In this document: positions 1 through 8,451 of the stretch, in pieces
Numbering within the stretch: the first letter of the stretch is position 1
Layout: each line of letters opens with the position of its first letter
NCBI RefSeq assembly: GCF_005876955.1
Contig: NZ_SSCL01000011.1
Span: 1-64,000 of the forward strand
Length of the DNA stretch: 64,000 nucleotides
Reading direction: 5' to 3'
Origin: Sinomonas gamaensis
GTDB lineage: Bacteria; Actinomycetota; Actinomycetes; Actinomycetales; Micrococcaceae
The notes under the pieces: generated by a model
What the model saw: the letters and a program-made list of their open reading frames with translations, nothing else
The model's database searches: none
What the model was told of the DNA's origin: nothing
Translations under genes and position numbers: made by a program

Positions 1-1239
<1,239 letters not shown>

Positions 1240-1253
1240 GGTTTGATCCTTGG

Positions 1254-1535
1254 TCAGGGCGAGGATGCGGCTTTGCGCTGGTTGGCCAGGCGGCCGGACA
1301 GGGCGAGTTCTCCGAGTTCTTCGGCGCCGGGCAGTCCGCGTTCGAGGACGGTGACGACGCCTATGCTCGCCTCGACCTGAGAGCGCAGATTGTCCCTGTT
1401 GGCGGTGATCCCGGAGATACAGTGCTCCGCGAGTGCGGTGCACTGTGCCGTGAGATCGCTGAGGCGGGCGAAGAGCGAGCGGGCGATGATGGGTTCGAAG
1501 GCGTTGAACTGCAAGTCCGCCTCCATCCGGCTCAT
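1254..1535 (-). pseudogene. C-terminal remnant of an aspartase/fumarase-family lyase
   Basis: A 93-residue ORF that looks like only the last domain of an aspartate ammonia-lyase-type enzyme (normally about 460-480 residues). Seen: [15 protein letters not shown], then [10 protein letters not shown] and SIGVVTVL, which match the tail where aspartases read LQLNAFEP, GITAN and SIGIVTAL. The signature loop GSSxMPxKxN and the rest of the active site are absent, so it cannot be catalytic by itself. Its ATG overlaps the stop of the tartrate-dehydrogenase-like gene (ATGA, 1532-1535), so it could still be translated by coupling. Most likely the scar of a deletion that joined two genes; a surviving small protein is the alternative. 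Confidence 0.7.
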
Positions 1536-2611
1536 GAAACCCTCGCCGTGCTTTCGGCCGAGGCGTCGATGGAAGACAGGACTGCGCTGGTGAATTGGGC
1601 GGTCGAGGAGGTCCCGCCCACGTCGCGGGTTCCGCCGCCGCTGCGCAGCACCGACTCGAACGCGGACTGCAGGTGGCGGGCTGCCTCCTTGTGGCCGAGG
1701 TGCTCGAGCATCATGGCCCCTGACCAGATCTGGCCCACGGGGTTGGCGATTCCCTTGCCGGCGATGTCGGGCGCGGAGCCGTGCACTGGCTCGAAGAGCG
1801 AGGGGTGTTTGCGCTCGGGGTTCAGGTTCGCGCTGGGGGCCAGGCCGATGGAGCCGGTCACCGCGCTGGCGAGGTCGGAGAGGATGTCGCCGAGCAGGTT
1901 CGAGGCCACGATCACGTCGTAGGACCAGGGCCGCAGGACGAGGTGCGCGGCGAGGGCGTCCACCAGCTCGCTCGTGAGCGCCACCTCGGGGTGGTCGCGC
2001 ACGGTCTCCTCCACGACCTCGTCCCAGAAGGGCATGGTGTGGACGATGCCGTTGCTCTTGGTCGCCGAGGCGAGCCGGCCGCTGCGGGAGGAGGCCAGCG
2101 CCGCGGCGTAGCGGGCCGCGCGGGATACGCCCAGGCGGGTGAAGATGGTCTCCTGCACCGCGCTCTCCTGCGGCAGGCCGCGGTAGATCCGTCCGCCGAC
2201 CTCGGAATACTCTCCCTCGTTGTTCTCGCGCACGATGAGCAGATCGATCGGATGCTTCGCGGCGAGGGGCGAGGCGACGCCGTCGAGCGTTTTGACCGGG
2301 CGGAGGTTGATGTACTGCTGGAACACGCGGCGGATGGGGATCAGAAGTCCCCACAGGGATTCGGCATCGGGCACCTGGGGGGAGCCGACGGCGCCCAGGA
2401 AGATTGCGTGGTGCTTGGCGAGCTGCTCGAGCCCGTCAGCCGGCATCATCCGCCCATGCCGGCCGAAGTAGTCCGAGCCCCACTCGAAGTAGGTGAATTC
2501 CAGGCTCAGCGAATGGACTTCGGCGACGCGCTGGAGGCAGGCGATGGCGGCCGGGACGACTTCCTGCCCGATGCCGTCCCCGGCGATGACCGCGATCCGG
2601 TCGGTGCTCAC
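1532..2611 (-). CDS. Tartrate/D-malate dehydrogenase-like isocitrate/isopropylmalate dehydrogenase family enzyme
   Basis: Metal- and NAD-dependent beta-decarboxylating dehydrogenase of 359 residues, the usual size for TtuC/DmlA, which oxidise tartrate, D-malate or related 2-hydroxy acids. Seen: N-terminal [16 protein letters not shown], the hallmark [15 protein letters not shown], the metal-binding region [13 protein letters not shown], and the NAD-site segment [17 protein letters not shown]. It starts with GTG at 2611, inside a GTGA overlap with the stop of the upstream aldehyde dehydrogenase, so the two are translationally coupled. TtuC and DmlA are hard to separate, and 3-isopropylmalate dehydrogenase is less likely because no leu genes are adjacent. 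Confidence 0.85.
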
Positions 2612-4143
2612 GAGGCCTCCCGGTCGGCGGCGGCCAGCTGCTCCTGCTCGGCTCCCCAGCTGGCGAGGTTGATGATCGTGCTCTTGGGCTCCGTCATCTC
2701 CAGGAGCGCATATTTGACTCCTTCGCGCCCCACTCCAGATTTCTTGAATCCCCCGAAGGGCATGGAGTCAATGCGCACGTCGCTGGTCTCATTGATGACC
2801 ACGGCGCCTGTCTGAAGTTTCTCCGCGATGGCCAAGGCGTGATTGACGGACTGGGTGAAGATGCCCGCTTGGAGTCCGTATTCGGTGTTGTTGGCAAGGT
2901 CGATGGCCTCTGAGACGTCGACGAAGGGGATGAGGCTGACCACGGGACCGAAGACTTCCTCGCGGATCACACGACTCGTCGCCGGGGCACCGGTCAGAAC
3001 AGTCGGTTCGTAGAAGGCATTGATACGCCTTCCTCCGGTGTGGACGGAGGCACCAGCAGTTTTGGCCTCTTCGACCCACTCCTCGACGCGCCGTGCCTCG
3101 GCTTCGGAAATGAGGGGCCCGACGTCCGTGGATGGGTCGAGCTTCGAGCCGACCTTGAGTGCCTTCGTGGCGATGACGACGTCCTCCAGGACCTGCTCGA
3201 ACAGCGACGTGTGGACGTAGACGCGCTGAACTGAGAGGCAGTTCTGGCCAGCCACACCGAAAGCTCCCGCCACTATGGCCCGTGCTGCCCTAGGAGCATC
3301 TGCATCTGCGCAGACGATCGTTGGGTTGTTGCCGCCGAGTTCGGAGAGGATCTTCTTCGCACCCGCGGTGCGTGCAATGCGCTCGGCCGTCTTCGGCCCG
3401 CCCGTGAAGGAGATGAGGTCCACGCGGTCGTCGGAGACGAGCGCTTCGGAGACTCCCTGCCCGCTGACGATGGCCGCAAGGCGTCCGGACGGAACTCCGG
3501 CTTGGAGCAGGAGGTCGACTAAGGCCAGCGCAGTGAGCGGCGTGCGGGCGGAGGGTTTGAGGACGACGCCGTTGCCTCCAATGAGCGCCGGTCCCAGCTT
3601 GTGCGCGACGAGGTTGAGCGGATCGTTGAAGGGTGTGATCGCGGCGATGATCCCGACCGGCTTGCGGCTGTACCAGCCGATCATATTGCCGCCGGCCACG
3701 CTGTCCTCGAACCCCAGATTCTCCCCGGTGAGCTCGGTAGAGGCCGCGCCCGAGAGCCGGAGAGTCTCGGTGGCGCGCCGCACTTCGCGCTCGGCTTCCC
3801 GGATCGTCTTGCTGCTTTCGGCGGCGATGATGTGCGCGAAGCGCTCAGCCTGTCCTTGGAGCAGCCGCGCCGCCCTCTCGAAGGCCTCCCGACGCGCGCG
3901 CAGGGGCCAGTCGTGCGTCTGGACGTGATGGTGAAGATGAGCTATCGCACGGCGGACGTCTTCGGGCCTCGAAGTGCAGACTCTTCCGATCAGGAAAGCG
4001 TCCTCGGGATCCCTCACGTCCAACGTCATGTTGGCTTTCTGCCATTGGCCTTCCCAGAAGGCTCCTCCGGGGAGGACGGCGAATTCTGAGCGTTTGTCGG
4101 CGGTCTTTGGGCGCGCTTCAGCCGGGTTTGTGGTTGGAAGCAT
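2608..4143 (-). CDS. NAD(P)-dependent aldehyde dehydrogenase
   Basis: Aldehyde dehydrogenase superfamily member of 511 residues, oxidising an aldehyde to the acid. Seen: substrate/cofactor strand IAAITPFNDPLNL (classical enzymes read TPWNFP), LSELGGNNP with the general-base Glu, and the nucleophile Cys in GVAGQNCLSVQRVYV. C-terminal EVFGPVV and MPFGGFKKSGVGREG are typical. I start at the ATG at 4143 (MLPTTNPA); an upstream in-frame extension overlaps the FAD-oxidase end and has no family support. It follows the PuuB-like oxidase by 17 bases, which fits oxidation of the aldehyde that oxidase would release, as PuuC does after PuuB. The GQNC context and variant PFND motif suggest a glyceraldehyde/phosphonoacetaldehyde-type or uncharacterised subgroup. 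Confidence 0.87.
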   Translation of the reverse strand: MLPTTNPAEARPKTADKRSEFAVLPGGAFWEGQWQKANMTLDVRDPEDAFLIGRVCTSRPEDVRRAIAHLHHHVQTHDWPLRARREAFERAARLLQGQAERFAHIIAAESSKTIREAEREVRRATETLRLSGAASTELTGENLGFEDSVAGGNMIGWYSRKPVGIIAAITPFNDPLNLVAHKLGPALIGGNGVVLKPSARTPLTALALVDLLLQAGVPSGRLAAIVSGQGVSEALVSDDRVDLISFTGGPKTAERIARTAGAKKILSELGGNNPTIVCADADAPRAARAIVAGAFGVAGQNCLSVQRVYVHTSLFEQVLEDVVIATKALKVGSKLDPSTDVGPLISEAEARRVEEWVEEAKTAGASVHTGGRRINAFYEPTVLTGAPATSRVIREEVFGPVVSLIPFVDVSEAIDLANNTEYGLQAGIFTQSVNHALAIAEKLQTGAVVINETSDVRIDSMPFGGFKKSGVGREGVKYALLEMTEPKSTIINLASWGAEQEQLAAADREAS

Positions 4144-4160
4144 GGGATTCCCTGTTCTGG

Positions 4161-5438
4161 CTACTTGATCCGGTCGATGATCTTCGCGGCTGCTCCGATG
4201 AAGGGCAGGAACCACGGCGGGCCGAAGTGGCCTGGAACGGGCGGGTTCTTCAGGTCTTCCCAGACGTTCGCCGACTTGTCGCCGCCCATGTAGTGCGCCA
4301 TCCGTTTGCCCATGTGGGCCGCCATCTGCACGCCGTGGCCGCTGTAGTTGAGGGAGTAGAAGAGCCCGTCATGGACGCCGGCGTGGACCATCTGGTCCAT
4401 CGAGAGGTCTACGAGACCGCCCCAGGTGTAGTCCACCCGGACATTCCCGAGGTAGGGGAAGAGCTCGAGCATGGCCTTGCGGAGAATCTCGCCGCTCTTG
4501 ACGTCCGAATCGGGGCTTGACAGCGCGAAGCGGGCTCGGCCGCCGAAGAGGAGTCGGTTGTCCGGGGTGATGCGGAAGTAGTACGTGAGCATCTTGCTGT
4601 CCGAGGCCATGCGCCGGTTGGGGAGGATCCGGTTCACCACGTCCTCGGGGAGCTGCTCGGTGACGATGATGAAGCTGCCCACAGGGATGACCCGGCGCTG
4701 CATCCAGGGGGTGATGCCGCCGGTGTAGCCGCTCGTGGCGACCAGGACCTGCTTGGCTCGGGTGGTCCCGCGGGCCGTGCGGACGTCGTGGGCCGTCCCC
4801 GAGACCCTCTTGAGCTCGGTCACGCCCGCGTTCTCGCAGATCTCAGTACCGGCAGCGACGGCAGCCCCGGCGAGGCCGTGGGCGAACTTGCCCACATGGA
4901 GCCCTGCACCCATGGGGTCCATCATGGCGCCCTTGTAGAAATCGGTGCCGATCTCGCTGTGAATCTCGGACTTCGGGATCACGTGGACGTGGTGGTCCAC
5001 CAGCTTGGCGAGCAGCTCCTGGGACTTCCGGAAGCCGTCGTTGTGCGACTCGTGGAAGGCGAGCGAGAGCTTGCCGAAGCGGTTGAAGTCGCAGTCGATC
5101 GCGTGGTCGTGCACCAGCTTCTCGATGCTGTCGATGGCGTCGCTGTACTCGCGGAAGTACTGCACCGCGCGGGCTTCGCCGTAGCGCTTGACCGCTGTGC
5201 TGAAGCCGATGGCCAGCCCTGTCGTTGCCATCCCGCCGTTGCGGCCGGACGCCCCCCAGCCGACGGTGTGGCGTTCGAAGACGGCGACGTTCGCGCCCTG
5301 CTGGGCGAACTCGAGGGCGGCAGAAAGGCCGGTGAAGCCGGCTCCGATGATCGCGACGTCGACGTTCTCCGGCACCGGCGTCTGCCGGTAGTCACCGGAA
5401 GGCTCTGCAGTGTCCAGCCAGTAGGGGATGAGTTTCAC
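4161..5438 (-). CDS. PuuB-like FAD-dependent amine oxidase (DAO family)
   Basis: A 425-residue FAD-dependent oxidoreductase of the D-amino-acid oxidase/gamma-glutamylputrescine oxidase fold, which oxidises a C-N bond to imine/aldehyde plus ammonia and hydrogen peroxide. Seen: the dinucleotide motif VAIIGAGFTGLSAAL near residues 27-41, ERHTVGWGASGRNGG that lines FAD in this family, and the C-terminal YSGHGVQMAAHMGKRMA. GTG start at 5438 overlaps the HAD-hydrolase stop by four bases. Next to an aldehyde dehydrogenase and near gabT/gabD, it fits polyamine, gamma-glutamyl-amine or other N-substituted amine oxidation. No glutamylpolyamine synthetase (PuuA) is in the window, so the classical Puu pathway is not demonstrated. 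Confidence 0.82.
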   Translation of the reverse strand: MKLIPYWLDTAEPSGDYRQTPVPENVDVAIIGAGFTGLSAALEFAQQGANVAVFERHTVGWGASGRNGGMATTGLAIGFSTAVKRYGEARAVQYFREYSDAIDSIEKLVHDHAIDCDFNRFGKLSLAFHESHNDGFRKSQELLAKLVDHHVHVIPKSEIHSEIGTDFYKGAMMDPMGAGLHVGKFAHGLAGAAVAAGTEICENAGVTELKRVSGTAHDVRTARGTTRAKQVLVATSGYTGGITPWMQRRVIPVGSFIIVTEQLPEDVVNRILPNRRMASDSKMLTYYFRITPDNRLLFGGRARFALSSPDSDVKSGEILRKAMLELFPYLGNVRVDYTWGGLVDLSMDQMVHAGVHDGLFYSLNYSGHGVQMAAHMGKRMAHYMGGDKSANVWEDLKNPPVPGHFGPPWFLPFIGAAAKIIDRIK

Positions 5439-6142
5439 GAAGATGCCTTTCGCCTCAGGAGATCGGCTGAGAGGCCGAGGTGCTTGTTGAGCTCGTCGAG
5501 GGACTTCATGGTGACGTAGTCGTAGCCCTCGGTAATGGGGTCATATCCCCGGTCCAGCAGCACAAGGTTCCTGAAGCCCATGTCGTGCATGGGCATCATG
5601 TCGTAGCGCGTGTGGGAGGAGACGTGCAGGAAGTCCCCGGGGGAGGCATTCAGCTTGTCGAGCATGTACTCGAAGGCCTGGTAGCGGGGCTTGTAGGCCC
5701 TGGCCTGCTCGGCCGTGTAGACGGCGTGGAAGTCAGCGCCGAGCTTGGGGACGCTGATGTCCAGGAAGCTGTCGTCGGCGTTGGACAGGATCACCAGCTG
5801 GTAGTTCTCGCCCATGGTCTTCAGCGGAGCTGGAACGTCCTCATGGGCAACCCAGCCCCGCACTGCCTCGGCAAACTCGGCCCCGGCGCCCGGCGTGGGG
5901 CTCAGGCCCCAGAACTTGCAGACGCGGTCGAAGGAATCCTGGAGGACCTGCTCGTAGGGCTTGTAGTCCCCGCACACCTCGTCGTACCGGTACCCGCGGA
6001 ACACCTTCTTGAAGGCCGGCCACTGCTCCTCCGGCAGACGTCCATCCAGGAGCCGACGGGTGGTGGGGTCGATGTCGAAGTTGATCAGGGTGCCATAGCA
6101 GTCGAAGGAGATGTACTTGGGCCGAAAATTGGTCTCTGGCAT
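5435..6142 (-). CDS. HAD-superfamily hydrolase, haloacid dehalogenase type II-like
   Basis: A 235-residue HAD hydrolase, the size of L-2-haloacid dehalogenases. Seen: motif I SFDCYGTLINF with the nucleophile Asp near residue 12, motif II LVILSNADDSF, a conserved Lys in ARAYKPRYQAFEY, and motif III FLHVSSHTRYDMMPMHDMG. First gene of the leftward operon; the start is ATG 6142 because the upstream frame extension lacks family similarity and contains the regulatory palindrome. Type II dehalogenase-like proteins occur in amine and amino-acid oxidation clusters where no halogenated substrate is evident, so the true substrate may be a phosphate ester or other acid. Downstream genes overlap or are tightly spaced, indicating one transcript. 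Confidence 0.82.
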   Translation of the reverse strand: MPETNFRPKYISFDCYGTLINFDIDPTTRRLLDGRLPEEQWPAFKKVFRGYRYDEVCGDYKPYEQVLQDSFDRVCKFWGLSPTPGAGAEFAEAVRGWVAHEDVPAPLKTMGENYQLVILSNADDSFLDISVPKLGADFHAVYTAEQARAYKPRYQAFEYMLDKLNASPGDFLHVSSHTRYDMMPMHDMGFRNLVLLDRGYDPITEGYDYVTMKSLDELNKHLGLSADLLRRKASS

Positions 6143-6576: not shown

Positions 6577-7506
6577 ATGAAGACCAGAAGCAAGGTCCAC
6601 GCCGCTGCTGCGGCGCTGGGCGTCGTGCTGGCGCTGAGTGCCTGCGGCAATGCCGCGAGCAGCAGCGCCCCCGCGGCCGGCAGCTCGGCCTCCTCTGACA
6701 CGGCCGACATCTCGGCGGGCGTCCAGCCCGACCCGAGCGCGGTGAAGCTGCTGCCGCAGTCGTACAAGGACAAGGGCGAGCTGAGCGTGGCGATGGACCT
6801 GCACTACCCGCCGACGACGTTCCTCGCCCCGGACAACACCACTGCGATCGGGCTGAACCCGGACATCGCCCGGCTGATCGCGGCGAAGCTGGGCCTGAAG
6901 CTGAAGTTCGAGAATGTCGTCTTCGACACGATCATCCCCGGCATCCAGGCCAACCGCTACGACTTCACCGTGACGACGATGTCCCCGACGGCGGAGCGGC
7001 TGAAGGTCCTGGACATGATCGACTACTTCAAGGCGGGGAATTCCGTGGCGGTGGCTGCGGGGAATCCGATGAAGCTGACCAATGAGAGCCTGTGCGGGAA
7101 GAATATCGCGGTCACCGCGGGCTCGACGGGCCAGCTCAAGCGCCTCCCGGCCCTCTCCGAGCAGACCTGCACCTCCAAGGGGCAGCCGGAGATCCATGCC
7201 GTGACGCTGCCGAACGTCCAGGAGGCCCTGACCCAGCTGGCCTCCAAGCGCGTGGACGGGATCCTCTACGACACGACCTCGCTGGCGTGGGCGGCGAAGC
7301 AGCAGCCCAACGCCTTCACGATCCTGACCCCCCAGATCAACGTCGGCTCCAGCGACGTGACCTCGATCGGGCTGAAGAAGGGCTCGCCGCTGACCCCGGC
7401 CCTGCAGGCCGCCGTCCAGTCGGTCCTGAACAGCCCGCAGTACAAGCAGTCCCTGGCGCACTGGGGCCTGGAGTCGGGCGCCATCACGGACGCCAAGCTC
7501 GACTAG
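6577..7506 (+). CDS. Polar amino-acid ABC transporter substrate-binding lipoprotein
   Basis: Solute-binding protein family 3 (309 residues), tethered outside the membrane and delivering an amino acid or amine to the permease encoded next. Seen: a lipoprotein signal peptide with basic start, hydrophobic stretch and lipobox LSAC (Cys near residue 24), a Ser/Ala-rich linker, then LSVAMDLHYPPTTF, GLNPDIARLIAAKLG and ANRYDFTVTTMSPTAER, typical of cluster-3 binding proteins. A GAAGGG ribosome site precedes the ATG. First gene of a transporter operon divergent from the oxidase/dehydrogenase operon, so the ligand is probably the compound degraded there. Specificity (glutamate, GABA, polyamine conjugate, methylated amino acid) cannot be told from sequence. 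Confidence 0.9.
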   Translation: MKTRSKVHAAAAALGVVLALSACGNAASSSAPAAGSSASSDTADISAGVQPDPSAVKLLPQSYKDKGELSVAMDLHYPPTTFLAPDNTTAIGLNPDIARLIAAKLGLKLKFENVVFDTIIPGIQANRYDFTVTTMSPTAERLKVLDMIDYFKAGNSVAVAAGNPMKLTNESLCGKNIAVTAGSTGQLKRLPALSEQTCTSKGQPEIHAVTLPNVQEALTQLASKRVDGILYDTTSLAWAAKQQPNAFTILTPQINVGSSDVTSIGLKKGSPLTPALQAAVQSVLNSPQYKQSLAHWGLESGAITDAKLD

Positions 7507-7518
7507 GGAAGGGCTCCC

Positions 7519-8451
7519 ATGCTGCAAACCACCGGTCACGGAAGTGAACGCAAGACGAGCGTGACGGACCCCGCGCTCAAGCCGCGCCTGCGGCGCCGGG
7601 GCGCCTTCGAATACCTCGCGTGGGCCCTGTGCGTCCTGCTGGGCGCGGGGGTCCTCTACTCGGTCTCGACCAACCCGAACTTCCAGTGGGGGGTGGTCGC
7701 GAAGTACTTCACCGAGCAGACCATCCTCAACGGCCTGATGCTCACGATCTTCCTCACCGTCGCCACCATGCTCCTGGGGACGCTGCTGGGGCTGGTGCTG
7801 GCGATCATGCGGTCCTCCAGGATCAAGCCCGTCGCGCTCACGGCCGGGGTGTACCTGACCCTGTTCCGGGGCACGCCTGTGCTGGTGCAGCTGATCTTCT
7901 GGTTCAACATCGCCGCCCTCTACCCGAACCTGACCCTCGGAATCCCGTTCACCGACATCGGCGTGCCGGTGGACATCAACACGCTCATGTCCCCGATCAC
8001 GGCCGCCCTGGTGGGCCTGACCCTGAACGAGGCCGCCTACATGGCCGAGATCATCCGCGGAGGCTTCTCCGCCGTCGGCAAGGGCCAGATCGAGGCCGCG
8101 GACTCCCTCGGCATGGGCTCCTGGACCAAGCTGCGCAAGGTCATCATCCCCCAGGCCATGCCCTCGATCATCCCCGCGACCGGGAACCAGTTCATCGGCA
8201 TGTTCAAGGAGACCTCCCTGGTGAGCGTGCTCGGGGTGGCCGAGCTGCTCCAGAGCGCCCAGCTGATCTACGCCCGCACCTACGAGACCATCCCGCTGCT
8301 GATCGTGGCCAGCCTCTGGTACCTGGTCATGACCCTCGTCCTGAGCTACCCGCAGTCCCTGCTGGAGAAGAGGTACTCCCGCTCCACCTCGCGCCTGCCC
8401 AGGAAGGCGAAGAAGGCCGTGCTGACAGAACCGGAAGGAATCGCCCGATGA
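7519..8451 (+). CDS. Polar amino-acid ABC transporter permease
   Basis: Inner-membrane permease of the HisM/GlnP family, 310 residues. Seen: a basic cytoplasmic N-terminus, several hydrophobic segments, the family start [26 protein letters not shown], and the EAA loop [29 protein letters not shown] region (residues about 174-200), which contacts the ATPase. The product may act as a homodimer, since no second permease gene is present. It follows the binding-protein gene by 12 bases and overlaps the ATPase start by four bases. The N-terminal extension of about 30 residues is longer than usual; a later start is possible but none has a better ribosome site. Confidence 0.9.

Follow-up and report, generated by a model that had tools for sequence, protein, structure and literature searches.

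A short aspartase-like reading frame in Sinomonas gamaensis is most probably a deletion remnant with an inherited start codon

Introduction

How does a short piece of an aspartase gene come to start in a four-nucleotide overlap with the stop codon of the gene in front of it? This question is raised by a 93-codon reading frame on the reverse strand of the window (the 64,000-nucleotide stretch of Sinomonas gamaensis DNA analyzed here, located at the beginning of a contig in the 4.3-Mb genome G000). The first-pass annotation had argued that coupling of this kind would seldom result from a random deletion, and that the frame was either retained as a small protein or reflected a very precise fusion. 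Deletion-derived gene fusions and remnants are a known general class in bacterial operons. A literature search combining Sinomonas and aspartate ammonia-lyase retrieved no paper. We estimate at roughly 87% the probability that the fragment is an ordinary deletion remnant, composed of the start of a 2-hydroxyacid dehydrogenase gene (D2HDH) fused to the tail of an operon-linked aspartase gene and shortened by a second deletion, its start site being most probably inherited.

Identity of the fragment and its operon

The reading frame runs from position 1535 to position 1254 on the reverse strand, with an ATG start, a TGA stop and 93 amino acids in the list of open reading frames. Five NCBIfam models match it at E ≤ 0.001, all of them for aspartase or class II fumarase. 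The best match is PRK12273 (aspartate ammonia-lyase, E = 1.6e-15, positions 355-416 of the 474 of the profile), followed by TIGR00839 (aspA, E = 1e-12), and the search against Pfam returned no family at E ≤ 0.001. The coordinates, the start and stop codons and these matches all agree with the aspartase-tail frame first described at this place. The fragment is 62-79% identical to long aspartase copies over 57-74 residues. A chance resemblance was ruled out by the NCBIfam matches and by an identity of 62-72% to the long open frames of aspartase-type genes from five other genomes.

The fragment is far below the curated cut-off of every model, above which a full-length aspartase is expected to score (57 bits against 510 for PRK12273 and 47.7 against 681.2 for TIGR00839). 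The signature loop SSIMPGKVN and the motifs GTSTN, STND and TQLQDAVP, whose roles we take from general knowledge of aspartases, are present in all four intact copies that were aligned and absent from the fragment, since all of them lie in the deleted part. The length of the open frame is weak evidence on its own: in this GC-rich DNA the same bases carry long open frames on both strands in the list of open reading frames, and when 77 codons were simulated under neutrality, the frame was still open in 18-74% of 200 runs per setting.

The fragment is the fifth of six genes read from the reverse strand. The operon begins with a haloacid-dehalogenase-type hydrolase gene (HAD, 5435-6139), followed by a FAD oxidoreductase gene of the DAO family, identified with Pfam (4161-5438), by an aldehyde dehydrogenase gene (ALDH, 2608-4146) and by an intact tartrate dehydrogenase-like gene (TDH, 1532-2611) that scores 500.2 bits with TIGR02089 for a cut-off of 470.4. 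Downstream of the fragment, 14 nt after its stop, there is an intact gene similar to zinc alcohol dehydrogenases and aldehyde reductases (ADH, 196-1239); its product is under the cut-off of each NCBIfam model that it matches and over the Pfam cut-off for its domains. This 14-nt gap contains an AAGGA motif. Overlaps of 4 nt occur at three of the five junctions of the operon, namely GTGA between HAD and the oxidoreductase, GTGA between ALDH and TDH, and ATGA between TDH and the fragment (1532-1535, reverse strand). The ATG of the fragment thus overlaps the TGA of the gene in front of it, as had been noticed from the sequence, within the range of 1-4 nt taken to define a coupled pair. On the forward strand, divergent lipoprotein and permease genes (6577-8451), assigned to an ABC-type transporter by visual inspection, occupy the corresponding divergent position in relatives.

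At the end of the contig, window positions 1-199 and positions 539687-539867 of contig C1 of the same genome carry two ends of pdxS-like genes (92% protein identity over 60 residues); pdxS presumably encodes a PLP synthase subunit. Both contigs end in exactly the same 127 nt of pdxS, which suggests that there are two pdxS genes in the genome and that the window copy was cut by an assembly break.

The operon in relatives

The neighbourhoods compared, with one genome per species, were those surrounding the five strongest ADH matches from other genera, found in Arthrobacter oryzae CC159 (locus L077), G425 (L157), G406 (L158), G225 (L159) and G418 (L160). G394 (L174) and G196 were added for their close aspartase matches, and the sister genome G011 is represented by loci L042 and L044. 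Hereafter, aspA2 designates the operon-linked aspartase-type paralog of these relatives.

The gene order of the relatives is HAD, oxidoreductase, ALDH, TDH, D2HDH, in some cases a second ALDH (ALDH2), aspA2 and ADH. A long open aspA2 frame belongs to the operon in four of them (A. oryzae CC159, G425, G225 and G394), with ALDH2 inserted between D2HDH and aspA2 in G425 and G394. ADH directly follows aspA2 in A. oryzae CC159, G425 and G225; in G394, it was not found within the stretch that was fetched. In G406 and G418 the operon includes ADH and lacks aspA2, and G196 has a more distant aspartase copy (60%) with no TDH in the 18 kb fetched. In G011, the parts are distributed over three contigs: C22 carries TDH and D2HDH, C6 has an intact aspA2, and on C20 a degenerate aspartase derivative precedes ADH. 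The gene order of the four genomes with aspA2 suggests the ancestral state. An intact counterpart stands at the corresponding place in relatives, as expected for a gene remnant.

The operon-linked type of aspartase is rare and patchy. Matches at E ≤ 1e-18 were detected in six of the 395 genomes of the family Micrococcaceae, where the type is present in or absent from otherwise similar operons; the match of the window's genome is the only one in fragment form, and the other five are included in open frames of at least 484 amino acids. This distribution would also allow several gains of aspA2, which leaves the reading of the window unaffected.

The first deletion and the origin of the overlap

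Comparing the locus with relatives that carry an intact aspartase, as had been recommended, reveals that D2HDH and most of aspA2 are missing from the window. The distance from the end motif of TDH to the aspA2 codons NAFEP is 2303 nt in A. oryzae CC159, 2294 nt in G225 and 3815 nt in G425 (which includes ALDH2), against 125 nt in the window. The motif LQLNAFEP is preceded by 365 codons in A. oryzae CC159 and in G225. The window has thus lost D2HDH together with some three quarters of the aspartase, or about 2.2 kb net.

The missing parts seem to have been lost and not relocated. No close copy of D2HDH was found elsewhere in the genome, where the best of seven matches has 36% identity. The one other aspartase-like match of the genome at E ≤ 0.001, on contig C2, is 52% identical to the fragment and belongs to its own complete frame of 489 amino acids, with the motif SSIMPGKIN and a permease-like gene behind it; these features rule out a relocation of the aspartase within the genome.

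The junction of this first deletion joins the start of D2HDH to the aspA2 codons around LQ[FL]NAFEP at positions 1512-1535 of the reverse strand. The window bases between the ATG and LQF (positions 1535 to 1512, CGGATGGAGGCGGAC) match neither parent exactly, so that the breakpoint is placed within these limits and not at a single base. A deletion of about 2.2 kb would have spared only the start codon of D2HDH, with perhaps one or two codons more, removed the first 365 or so codons of aspA2 as well, and joined the start of D2HDH in frame to the tail of aspA2. A chance of one in three would suffice for the frame to be kept.

The ATGA overlap is most likely older than this deletion, since the stop of TDH already overlaps the start of D2HDH in relatives. 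Among seven relatives, the two codons share ATGA in three (L077, L158 and L159) and GTGA in two (L042 and L174). L157 has TAATG, with an overlap of one base, and L160 has a usable in-frame GTGA with an ATG two codons further on; the D2HDH starts were read by us from the frames, not taken from annotation. The sequence TCATGAGC is identical in A. oryzae CC159 and in the window. On the basis of its position and of eight shared bases, the ATG of the fragment is most likely the start codon of the lost D2HDH. A de novo origin of ATGA through the deletion is less likely than inheritance, given the overlaps of the relatives; the tails of TDH are variable among the relatives compared. The argument that a random deletion would rarely produce such coupling loses its force, because the overlap most likely existed before and 4-nt overlaps are found at two further junctions of the operon. 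The proposal of a very precise fusion was right in substance: against the operon of the relatives, the fragment appears as an in-frame deletion fusion.

With the start site of D2HDH inherited, the remnant is probably still translated by ribosomes that finish TDH. Its ATGA resembles the four-nucleotide overlapping gene pairs with termination-reinitiation described in PMC10666635. It differs from such pairs in that the downstream partner is a remnant and that the overlap most likely comes from a lost gene.

The second deletion

The first-pass description of an aspartase C-terminal piece was correct for the identity of the tail and not for its continuity, because the string SIGVVTVL spans a second, internal deletion. 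The fragment lacks 28 codons (84 nt) between SIGVVT and VLERG, and the scar is the heptamer CGTCCTC at positions 1344-1350 (reverse strand). In the aspA2 gene of A. oryzae CC159, two copies of CGTCCTC, in the same register and 84 nt apart, mark the ends of the lost stretch. Compared with this gene, the left flank of the scar in the window derives from the first copy and the right flank from the second. The 7-nt repeat, which the Sinomonas ancestor would also have had, was found in one of the five intact copies; the remaining four share 5, 4, 3 and 0 nt at these ends.

The 84-nt deletion probably occurred between two in-register copies of CGTCCTC, and would have removed 28 further codons after the first event, if the two deletions took place in this order. 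As the copies are in register, the frame would survive this deletion without selection. Both breakpoints can be identified, the second as the CGTCCTC scar and the first within the limits 1512-1535. The remnant frame (1254-1535, reverse strand) would therefore consist of the start codon of the lost D2HDH, with perhaps one or two of its codons, fused in frame to the C-terminal part of aspA2. It shares with the aspartate ammonia-lyases of the relatives (PRK12273/TIGR00839) the slot before ADH, as seen in three of them, and differs by the lack of about 365 N-terminal codons, of 28 internal codons and of the signature loop.

The slot before ADH

A different reading is that the peptide is functionless and that its frame has been kept because ribosomes crossing it support the expression of ADH, either by coupling or by protection from premature transcription end. 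Every lesion of the fragment is in frame, and its stop precedes ADH by 14 nt with AAGGA in between; the distance from the aspartase stop to ADH is just 9 nt in one intact relative. However, the in-frame state of the second deletion is accounted for by the register of the repeat, the first had its one chance in three, and ADH has a motif of its own that resembles a ribosome-binding site. In the two other intact relatives of the three, the aspartase stop is 29 and 33 nt from ADH, and gaps of about 20 nt nearly abolish translational coupling according to PMC10666635. Strong coupling to ADH therefore does not look general, and we regard this reading as improbable.

The sister genome G011 bears on the same point, as its slot before ADH also holds an open aspartase derivative with in-frame gaps only, of 371 codons (L044 6557-7672, reverse strand, contig 20). 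The catalytic motifs of the intact copies are substituted or deleted in this derivative. On its branch, dN/dS reaches 0.54 (0.32-1.18), compared with 0.13 on that of the intact G011 copy. In an alignment that is uncertain near the C-terminus, 100 of the 348 columns invariant in the four intact copies are deleted and 83 changed, and of the 134 variable columns 35 are deleted and 42 have a residue unseen in the intact copies. Losses in invariant and variable columns alike indicate a decay spread over the protein, which argues against a kept scaffold. The proportion of neutral runs without a stop (200 per setting) was 17.5-23.5% at t = 0.1, 2.5-6.5% at t = 0.2 and 0-2.5% at t ≥ 0.3; by a hand estimate, fully neutral evolution would require t of about 0.2 to produce the protein change of the derivative.

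The G011 derivative is possibly a pseudoenzyme or a slowly decaying pseudogene, and it gives the one hint that an open frame in the slot before ADH might be kept. A broader proposal, built on this derivative, is that two Sinomonas species have each turned the aspartase in front of ADH, in different ways, into a translated, non-catalytic frame that is kept open (371 codons in G011, 93 in the window) through selection for translation or binding; this too appears unlikely to us.

In G011, the lipoprotein genes at two contig ends (L042 19260-19322 and L044 7975-8037) share exactly 63 nt and have different upstream DNA. This suggests recombination or conversion between transporter paralogs.

Selection and structure of the fragment

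The frame could also encode a functional small protein, in which the aspartase tail is kept as a peptide that binds, for example, another aspartase-type enzyme of the cell; the complete aspartase-type protein encoded elsewhere in the genome is a possible partner. In the core of 56 codons, the amino-acid change is slow (branch dN/dS 0.23 for the fragment and 0.15 for the intact G011 copy), and the five unique changes of the fragment are about as frequent as the four of the intact copy, which also fits a constrained peptide. But the bootstrap interval of 0.06-1.45 excludes nothing, and the change is faster past the second scar, where 21 codons have four unique changes against none in the intact G011 copy. 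Over both parts (77 codons), dN/dS is 0.34 (bootstrap 0.12-1.50) for the fragment and 0.14 for the intact copy. With 56-77 codons, rate tests lack the power to exclude a peptide function, and these values would also be obtained after a recent deletion.

A single-sequence AlphaFold model of the fragment has two helices (residues 3-65 and 71-90, thus 63 and 20 residues) with a mean pLDDT of 84.7, which would suit a small protein; against this, one long helix followed by a short one, with a pTM of 0.48, gives no sign of a compact fold. The fragment form, moreover, is confined to the window's genome among the six matching genomes of the family. The structure of the RNA across the fragment is not notable (z = -1.48 against 100 shuffles). 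The proposal of a retained small protein thus gains no positive support, as the core ratio of 0.23 (0.06-1.45) also fits a recent deletion, and we hold it to be very improbable. The fragment is most probably a remnant without function.

Finally, a mis-assembly joining TDH to ADH near the contig end, which lies 1.25 kb away and inside a repeat, is hardly credible, as both sides of the join belong to one operon with the gene order of the relatives, the second scar sits within the fragment at a natural short repeat, and the 127 nt common to the two contig ends are in pdxS, away from the join.

Conclusion

The history of the locus can be proposed as follows. An ancestral TDH gene would have been followed by D2HDH, with a start overlapping the TDH stop (ATGA or GTGA), and then by aspA2 and ADH, before the two deletions left the present frame. 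As in other deletion-derived fusions and remnants, an in-frame join links the start of one gene to the tail of a later gene and a short repeat marks a scar; we see no essential difference between these and the window fragment. A remnant frame with an ideal ATGA overlap and a conserved in-frame tail can mimic a designed or selected small gene, which calls for caution. The relatives indicate that here the overlap came from a neighbour since deleted, and that a short repeat in register can preserve a frame. Should ribosomes crossing the remnant in fact support ADH expression, the locus would illustrate, on a small scale, how a pseudogene can be retained for the benefit of the next gene.
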